Shown: positions 54,621-57,554 of the stretch, in pieces
Layout of the letters: each line of letters starts with the position of its first letter
Numbering within the stretch: the stretch's first letter is position 1
NCBI GenBank assembly: GCA_016191815.1
Contig: JACPVI010000023.1
Location: forward strand, 1-64,000
Direction: 5' to 3'
Origin: Myxococcales bacterium
Lineage (GTDB): Bacteria > Myxococcota > Myxococcia > Myxococcales > Myxococcaceae
Length of the DNA: 64,000 bases
Made by a program: the position numbers and the translations under genes
The notes under the pieces: generated by a model
Seen by the model: the letters and a program-made list of their open reading frames with translations, nothing else
Database searches by the model: none
Told to the model about the DNA's origin: nothing

Positions 54621-57554
54621 TCAGCTCCCGCCCGGGGAGCGGCGCCTCGCTTCCCAGTAGCGCTGGTGCACCCGCAGGTTCAAGGGCTCCAGCCTGAGGG
54701 CGGCCTCGTACTGATCGAGGGCGGCCTTGAGCTCGCCGTTCTTCTCCGCCTCCGCCCCCGCCTCGAACAGCCGGCGCGCCTCCGCCGCGGCGGCGCTCCC
54801 GGACGGCTCGATCCGGCGCCTCACCCCTTCGATCTCGGCCATGCTCACACCCGCCCCCAGGCAGCAGGCCACTCCGCGGAAGTTGCCGTGGCGCGCGTCG
54901 TGCTCGAGCCGGAGGATCGGATCTCCGAGCGTGTCCACTGCCTTGCGTACGCGCTGCAGCGCCGCCTCGAGCTTCGCCTTGTCCGAGGGAGGCGGCTCGC
55001 CCTCGATCAGCCGCTCGAGCTCCACCCGCACTTTCCTGCCCACCCGGCGCACGTCGGTGAAGCTCGCGTCCAGCGTGAGGCCGAGGAGCAGGTAGTCGTC
55101 CCCGAGCATCCGCTTCTGGAACCGGGCCAACGCTGCCGCGAGCCCTTCGGGCGCCGGGCGCTTCGAGGCCGGCGGCTCTCCGCCCGGCTCGGCCCGGGGC
55201 CGATCCAGGAGCCTTCTCAGCTCGGCCGGCGCGTCCAGCACCTCGAGGCCGTACCCCGGGATCGTCTTCGCGGCGCTCGCCTCCGGGGGAGTCACCTGGC
55301 GCGTGACCTTGCAGGCGCACTCGATGCGCTCGCCCCACTCCAGCTCCAGGGCGACCTTCACCCTGGCGAACAGCGGGAGGAAGGTCAGGCCATCGGACTT
55401 GAGGAACAGCTCCTTTTGCGAGGCCTCGGCGCACTCCAGGCGGGCGAGCGACTTCCCCCCGGGAGAGAACACCTGAGCCGCGGCGCGAAGCGGGGTCGCC
55501 TTGGCGGCGGCCCGGGGGGCAGACGGAGCGCTGGCCACGGATGCGGCGGGGCTCGGCGGGACAATCGCCGGGGGCGGCAGGGAGGGCCTTTGGGCTTCCA
55601 GCGCGGCGCCGAAAGAGGCCGCGTCCTGGTAGCGGTCCGAAGGGGCCTTGGCCATCGCCCGGGCGATCGCGTCGGACCAGGAGCGCGGCACCTTCGGGTT
55701 CACCTCATGCGCAGGCGGAGGAGCGTCCTCCATCTGCGCGAGCAGGGTGGCCACCACGCTGCCTCGCTTGAACGGGGCCCTCCCGGTGGCGAGCTGGTAC
55801 GCGATCACGCCCAGGGAGTAGATGTCGGCTCGCCCGTCCACCATCGCGCCCTCCGCCTGCTCGGGCGCCATGTAGTCGGGCGAGCCGACGATCGCGCCGG
55901 TGGGCGTGTTCTCGCGGCCACGGCGGTCGAACAGCTTGGCCACTCCGAAGTCGAGGACCTTGACGAAGTTGGCGAGCTGCCCGCGGTTGACCAGGAAGAT
56001 GTTCTCGGGCTTGAGATCGCGGTGCACCACGCCGCGGGCGTGCGCCGCCTGGAGCGCGTCGCACACCTGCAACAGCACCGGCACCGCCACCGCCGCTTCC
56101 ACCGGGCCGTCCAACAGCTGCGCCAGCGGACTGCCCTCCAGGTGCTCCATCACCAGGTAATAGCTCCGCGGCGGAGCCACGTTCATGTCGAAGATGTTGA
56201 CGATGTTCTCGTGGCCGATCAGGTTGACCGTGCGGGCCTCGTCGAAGAAGCGCTGCACCAGCGTGGGGTCCGCAGAGAGGTGCTCGTGCAGCACCTTCAC
56301 CGCCACCTTGCTCCCGATGATGGAGTGCTCCCCGAGGTACACCGTCCCCATCCCCCCGCCCCCGAGTTTCTTCACGATCCGGAAGCTCCCCAGCAGGGAC
56401 CCGACCAGCGGATCGGCGCCGGCCGCCTGCAAAAGTGGAGGCGCCACGGTCCTCAGCGAGCCGGGGCAGACCGCTTCGGGGGCGTGGGCCAGCCGGCAGG
56501 AGGGGCAAGGCAGGTAGGGATTCCCCGCGCCGGTGCCCTGCCGTGACAGCCGCGCCCGGATCGGGTCGTTCACCTCCGCCCAGCGGCGGGCGCGGACCTC
56601 CTGCACCTCGGCCTCCGACAACCCGCAAGTCAACGGCGACCCGCAGCTCCGGCAGCGCAGCGGCCCCTCCCCTCCCGCCCGCAATTCGTGGACCTGCTTG
56701 GCCTCCAGCTCCAGCTCCACCGGCTCGCCCCCACAGTTCCCGCACCGGTACGGGAGGCGGACCGACACCAGCTCGGCAGGGAGATCCCCAGGGAGCTCCC
56801 TCAAGAGGAACGGCGGCACCCGCGCGATGGCGAAGCTCGCCCCCGGAGCGCGCACCAACTCGCAGAGCCTGGCCACCCCCTCCAAGGTGGCGGCGGTCAC
56901 TCCACCGCAGAGGACGAGCACCGGACCGTCCAGCCCCTCCGCCACCCGGCGGAAATTCGCTCGCCCGTCCAGCTCCCCGCTCAAGGAAAGCGCGGTGAGC
57001 GGGTCGCCGATCTCCCTCGAGATCTTCAAGCCGTGCCCGGCCCCGAGGGCGCGGCCGCCCAGCAAGGCCTCCACCGCCGCAGGAGGATTCGGCCGGGGCG
57101 CCCGCATCGCGTACTCGAAGTACGTCGCCGGGTCATCGTCGATCTCCGCCTTGCCCCCGCAGGCCGAACAGGCGATGGGCGGCGGCTCGCTGGTGAGCGC
57201 GTCCTTGAGCAGGTCGACCAGGACTTCGCTCTCGCGGCCACACTCCCCGCAAAGGTATGGCACGTAGAAGCTCAACAGCTCCCCGCGCCCGGCGAAGCCG
57301 GCGACCATGTTGAACTGGATCAACACCTGGGGCCGGCAGCGGACGAAGCAGTAGTAGAGGTCCGCCCGCACCCGCCCCAGGGCCTCGAGCCAGGCGCGTA
57401 CCCCGAAGGAGGTGATTCGCCCGACCCCGTCCAGGTCCAGCACCAGCGGGCCATGCGCCCCGGAGAAGATCGTCCGCCCGTCGAAGCGCTCGTCTACCAC
57501 CGCAGGCAGCCCAATGAGCTGGCCGGGTCCCTTTGCGGCTTGGGCAGCGGGCAC
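54621..57554 (-). CDS. 977-residue Ser/Thr kinase with STAS-like, zinc-ribbon, PilZ-like and J-like parts
   Basis: Starts at a GTG (SD GGGGGAG). Two repeats of a STAS-like domain plus zinc ribbon come first: 35-90 ([20 protein letters not shown]) with C102/C105/C129/C132, then 185-260 ([20 protein letters not shown]) with C271/C274/C301/C304. A third Cys set is C350, C353, C363. The kinase (391-650) has GGGGMG (398-403), Lys420, HRDLKPEN (511-518), DFG (535-537) and APE (563-565). After an Ala/Pro linker, 700-785 is PilZ-like ([20 protein letters not shown]). Residues 817-897 look like a degenerate J/helical domain ([35 protein letters not shown]), and 925-970 is one TPR. No transmembrane helix. 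A cytoplasmic integrator of signals is inferred. Confidence 0.92.

Follow-up and report, generated by a model that had tools for sequence, protein, structure and literature searches.

A tandem STAS-zinc-ribbon module joined to a Pkn1-type kinase in a Myxococcales bacterium suggests a partner switch rewired to control a protein kinase

Introduction

Most of what is known of bacterial partner switches concerns the control of sigma factors. In Bacillus, the STAS proteins SpoIIAA and RsbV serve as docking and phosphorylation sites of the GHKL ATPases SpoIIAB and RsbW, respectively. Many Hanks-type kinases are activated by dimerisation; however, we know of no described route of activation for most of those in myxobacteria. 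The described protein closest to the one examined herein is Pkn1 (MXAN_1467) of Myxococcus xanthus. Pkn1 is reported to be a kinase with a PilZ domain that is needed for normal sporulation, and this PilZ domain is predicted not to bind cyclic di-GMP (PMC8316039). The PilZ-DnaK chaperones CsdK1 and CsdK2 of M. xanthus also join PilZ to a chaperone-type domain, as does the present protein; however, they have DnaK instead of a J-like region and lack a kinase (PMC10313047). Our literature search, which covered open-licence papers only and is weak evidence of novelty, retrieved no account of myxobacterial STAS-zinc-ribbon proteins or of a STAS-Hanks-kinase partner switch.

In the present study, we analysed a kinase gene in a stretch of 64,000 nucleotides (hereafter the window) from a Myxococcales bacterium of the predatory family Myxococcaceae, the genome of which is a 6.77-Mb draft in 89 contigs. 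The encoded protein follows the plan of Pkn1 from a small CxxC-H-C finger onward, and its N-terminus consists of two STAS-zinc-ribbon units.

Results

The kinase gene (54621-57554, minus strand) encodes 977 amino acids and begins with GTG, upstream of which lies the purine run GGGGGAG. It follows rplQ in the same orientation at a distance of 123 nt; rplQ and rpoA were recognised by eye from their translations. Neither a sigma-70-type promoter nor a terminator pattern was found between rplQ and the kinase gene, a negative that says little in an organism of this kind. A convergent 200-aa open reading frame (54010-54612, plus strand) has no Pfam match. The kinase was previously described as cytoplasmic, which is fair because transmembrane segments are absent, the hydropathy of 19-residue stretches peaking at 1.58. 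The domain order is well supported: two STAS-ribbon units, then the CxxC-H-C finger, Hanks kinase, PilZ fold, degenerate J-like region, and TPR. Pfam recognised Pkinase at residues 392-642 (E 1.9e-45) and merely hinted at the other domains. The Ser/Thr kinase domain (55590-56384, minus strand) is complete, as had been proposed, and has the G-loop, Lys, HRD, DFG, and APE motifs of a Hanks-type kinase with intact catalysis motifs. The finger, CxxCx3Hx5C at residues 350-363 (56466-56507, minus strand), also occurs in many Pkn1-type kinases and was overlooked in the preliminary description.

M. xanthus AM003 has two kinases of the J-TPR kind, one of which matches Pfam PilZ. The open reading frame of the latter is exactly 693 aa from the ATG behind a GGGGGGAGG run and contains PilZ and J/TPR parts. 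Pkn1 is likewise 693 aa long, and there is a strong case, not proven by accession, that this open reading frame is Pkn1. Besides kinase and PilZ, the Pkn1 of M. xanthus AM003 (loci L172 and L201) seems to have a CxxC-H-C finger at its N-terminus and, at its C-terminus, a degenerate J-like region with TPR; the available part of PMC8316039 makes no mention of the J-like and TPR parts. Pkn1 shares with the window protein the finger, a canonical HRDLKP kinase, a PilZ fold with degenerate motifs, a J-like region without HPD, TPR, and a place in the same kinase group of the tree; in contrast, it has no STAS-ribbon front. The earlier statement that no kinase with this order has been described holds for the STAS front, but not from the finger onward. 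Domain order and kinase clade both place the window protein in the Pkn1 type, whereas its N-terminus is not finger-only. The window protein is a fused variant of the Pkn1 type, and its novelty lies in the two STAS-ribbon units. A second clade of J-TPR kinases (L174-L176 and L151) has neither HRDLKPE/D nor HRDVSPHN as its catalytic loop string, and its members are possibly divergent or pseudo-kinases.

STAS domain 1 spans residues 1-165 (57060-57554, minus strand) and contains zinc ribbon 1 (C102xxC105...C129xxC132; 57159-57251, minus strand), while STAS domain 2 spans residues 172-338 (56541-57041, minus strand) and contains zinc ribbon 2 (C271xxC274...C301xxC304; 56643-56744, minus strand). 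With a profile drawn solely from single STAS-ribbon modules and first copies, the second copy of the window protein was matched at E 1.1e-7 and those of many homologues at E values down to 6.9e-16, which established that the pattern noted earlier does occur twice. The two CxxC pairs of each copy were invariant across 15 homologues. An AlphaFold2 model of the N-terminal ~340 residues (mean pLDDT 83.6) consisted of two similar units. With VIA-align, both halves gave Z scores of 8-9 to SpoIIAA, RsbV, the STAS domain of YchM, and a Haliangium anti-sigma antagonist (4hyl), and SpoIIAA was the top Foldseek match, with a modest E value of 2e-3. A STAS profile from which the ribbon was left out matched 4hyl (E 7e-5), with Ser49 aligned with the serine of D-S-x-G. 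The Pfam STAS/STAS_2 score of the window protein was 16 bits against a cut-off of 29.2, and one homologue passed with 31.5. The model scores, the match to 4hyl, and the GHKL neighbours of relatives described below support the STAS identity that had been suggested. Since the structural alignments reach residues 160 and 335, beyond the ribbons, and the predicted elements of STAS 1 run from a strand (95-102) through the ribbon to a helix (143-151), each ribbon appears, going by these ranges and predicted elements, to interrupt its STAS domain ahead of the C-terminal helix, an arrangement overlooked in the preliminary description. Zinc-finger PDB entries matched by the module profile were short CxxC matches and were rejected as relatives.

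Ser49 (57408-57410, minus strand), in RITSFGV, aligns with the phospho-serine position Ser58 of SpoIIAA; the equivalent serine is lost from STAS2. Across the loci, the serine is kept by all 76 first copies, by all 22 single copies that could be aligned, and by 2 of 78 second copies, with the first-copy count inflated because most of the loci counted (69) were fetched by a pattern containing the serine. Where a profile was the sole means of retrieval, the serine was present in the majority of single or first copies and absent from a few. Even with the pattern bias, first and second copies contrast markedly. However, conservation of the serine may be structural, since it is also found in STAS domains not known as phospho-switches, namely prestin and those of the MlaB type.

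The C-terminal model (pLDDT 89.8) contained a PilZ barrel, with a best Z score of 12.8 to MotI and matches to many other PilZ domains, as well as TPR. The PilZ fold (about residues 681-791; 55182-55514, minus strand) was not detected by Pfam in the window protein and was detected in its paralogue with E 1.6e-8. The sequence EASQKE occupies the position of [D/N]xSxxG, and RxxxR is missing; therefore, the binding of cyclic di-GMP by this domain is unlikely. The earlier PilZ-like assignment stands as a fold, but not as a ligand site. The ligand residues were not lost from every homologue: among ~36 PilZ-bearing relatives, the second motif was scored by script in 22, and both motifs were present in three (L147, L152, and L171; the second motif of L152 was read by eye from the alignment). 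For the J-like region (about residues 820-892; 54879-55097, minus strand), a three-sequence profile matched J-domains of DnaJ proteins, with the best E value, 5.3e-6, to DNAJB6; Pfam DnaJ was silent on the window protein and just above the cut-off in a paralogue on contig 53. The likeness to J-domains is therefore upheld, but HPD was found in 0/37 J-like regions of relatives, so that no stimulation of Hsp70 is expected. The TPR segment (about residues 920-977; 54624-54797, minus strand) was seen both by profile and by fold, as described previously.

These results bear on the proposal in the preliminary description that the kinase integrates STAS, cyclic di-GMP, and chaperone inputs. In its favour, each of the four folds is either present or indicated, and three relatives keep both PilZ motifs. 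However, the window PilZ has neither motif, the PilZ of Pkn1 is also predicted not to bind cyclic di-GMP (PMC8316039), and none of the 37 J-like regions has HPD. We rejected cyclic di-GMP input through the PilZ part and Hsp70 input through the J part because these motifs are missing, and the three-input link to phosphorylation is an unlikely reading to which we give very little credence.

The J-TPR profile was found in 94/96 genomes of Myxococcaceae, in kinases mostly bearing PilZ too. In the kinase tree, the window protein and a paralogue on contig 72 formed one clade (99/88) inside the kinase-PilZ-J group, and kinases with two STAS-ribbon units of the other type stood apart from it (100/100). 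In the N-terminal tree, the same two proteins fell in a seven-row clade (99/98), the other five rows of which were STAS-STAS-kinases from this genome (contig 32), G001, and three other myxobacterial loci. Two of these five were also placed in the kinase tree, and both were of the other kinase type, with HRDVSPHN. Since the two trees group the window protein and its paralogue with different families, the STAS-ribbon pair came from the other kinase family, was fused once to a complete Pkn1-type kinase, and was then duplicated with it. The small finger was present in 14/26 Pkn1-type kinases with enough upstream sequence; because many of them already carry it, the joint most likely lies upstream of the finger, at about residues 338-350. 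STAS-ribbon and J parts were found together in no other protein in the 69 named loci (from Myxococcaceae and other Myxococcota), in 20 further loci, or among the matches listed for 195 genomes of the phylum.

The only known examples of the fusion come from one draft genome of many contigs, which could point to an assembly artefact or to the decaying relic of a chance fusion. However, the two copies have diverged to 48% identity, lie on different contigs, and share the same domain order in an open frame, and the catalytic motifs of the window copy are intact; we consider this reading unlikely in the extreme.

The Myxococcaceae kinases from which the pair appears to derive have the same tandem STAS-ribbon N-terminus as the window protein. 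They differ in belonging to another kinase family (HRDVSPHN), in lacking J/TPR, and in often having a hydrophobic segment near the C-terminus. They are ~1,100 aa long, and no name was found for them; genomes of Myxococcus, Archangium, and Corallococcus usually encode one or two. A GHKL gene lies immediately upstream in most of them, in contrast to the window gene. The L046, L048, L051, L053-L057, and L122 regions (Myxococcus and Archangium relatives) have a divergent GHKL gene that either overlaps the kinase gene at its start or abuts it there. L118 (BNCN01000007.1), titled as a Comamonas sp., contains a kinase of this Myxococcaceae type, and the record is probably misnamed.

Stand-alone STAS-ribbon genes on contigs 37 and 59 of the present genome are followed by GGDEF-PilZ-GHKL fusions (L044:4039-7264 and L042:3783-6982, respectively). 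Such a pair is possibly a direct link from cyclic di-GMP synthesis to a partner switch. A first GHKL profile, built from three GHKL regions near stand-alone STAS-ribbon genes, matched within 2.5 kb of a STAS-ribbon domain in 37/69 named loci and had no match in 337 kb of control DNA. A refined profile matched in 58/69 named loci, a count that is partly circular because the profile was built from those loci. The genome-wide count is a cleaner test of the association than the locus counts: this genome had four matches and each of G001, G022, and M. xanthus AM003 had a single one, and 7/7 of these genes from four genomes adjoined or shared a frame with STAS-ribbon genes. M. xanthus AM003 has exactly one GHKL gene of this kind. 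L101, L199, and L200 have GHKL and STAS-ribbon parts within a single open frame. The family keeps the boxes E-N, D-G, and GGAGLGL, its matches to Pfam HATPase_c_2 were mostly below the cut-off, and its profile matched no solved structure at E 0.1. On the evidence of sequence and gene order, STAS-ribbon genes across Myxococcota were shown to be near-exclusively associated with one divergent family of predicted GHKL ATPases. Neither the window gene nor its paralogue has a GHKL neighbour, whereas most relatives have one.

Discussion

The present results suggest that a partner switch has been rewired to control a protein kinase, through the joining of a STAS pair to a Pkn1-type kinase. Like the Bacillus switches, the system has a STAS fold, a serine at the Ser58 position, and, in relatives, a partner gene for a GHKL ATPase. 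It differs from them in the ribbon inside STAS, the tandem copies, and the fusion to a Hanks kinase; moreover, neither a sigma factor nor a GHKL neighbour was seen at the window locus.

We propose, as the best reading, that the window protein is an orphan Pkn1-type kinase and that a GHKL protein from another locus gates it through a module resembling a partner switch; we give this reading a probability of about 0.5. The protein is a soluble Hanks kinase with its N-terminus extended by the tandem STAS-zinc-ribbon module. A GHKL ATPase may act in trans by docking on STAS1 and phosphorylating it at Ser49, in the manner of SpoIIAB on SpoIIAA or RsbW on RsbV. STAS2, having lost the serine, may have a structural role or be a constitutive partner. 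The state of docking would reach the kinase as activation or as release from inhibition, and the PilZ, J-like, and TPR parts would be protein-binding or structural modules rather than sensors of cyclic di-GMP or Hsp70. The partner would be encoded elsewhere because the window gene has no GHKL neighbour; candidates are the four GHKL proteins linked to STAS in this genome (contigs 1, 32, 37, and 59) or another not yet known. More broadly, and more tentatively, Myxococcota may have an undescribed partner switch of a zinc-ribbon STAS protein and a dedicated GHKL ATPase, the output of which is often a Hanks kinase instead of a sigma factor and which was rewired here onto a Pkn1-type kinase by fusion.

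Ser49 of STAS1, or its neighbours, may instead be a substrate of the fused kinase, and the module would then act as a phospho-switch in cis or as a platform on which stand-alone STAS-ribbon proteins dock, and GHKL would not be needed. The serine and a Ser/Thr kinase are in the same chain, this locus has no GHKL gene, and the genome has stand-alone STAS-ribbon genes; however, the serine is also kept in proteins without a kinase and in GHKL operons, and we consider this explanation rather unlikely. It is similarly doubtful that the pair acts purely in zinc-stabilised dimerisation or localisation, bringing kinases together for trans-autophosphorylation with no partner switching. The cysteines are invariant in both copies even though copy 2 has lost the serine, and dimerisation activates many Hanks kinases, but the association with GHKL is near-exclusive and includes both parts in a single frame.

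If gating by a GHKL partner is the correct reading, the conserved STAS-ribbon/GHKL pair located directly on a Myxococcus kinase gene offers a testable route of kinase activation in a genetically tractable organism. The fusion also shows that the STAS-ribbon module is a portable input, transferable between unrelated kinases. For Pkn1 itself, the analysis adds a C-terminus composed of a degenerate J-like region and TPR.

The surroundings of the gene had been described as rich in FHA readers. Among the open reading frames scanned, one clear FHA protein was found and another was only FHA-like. Sigma-54 activators bearing FHA or FHA-like domains are encoded at 47380-50001 (minus strand) and 13908-15788 (plus strand) of the window, and they are the probable basis of that remark.
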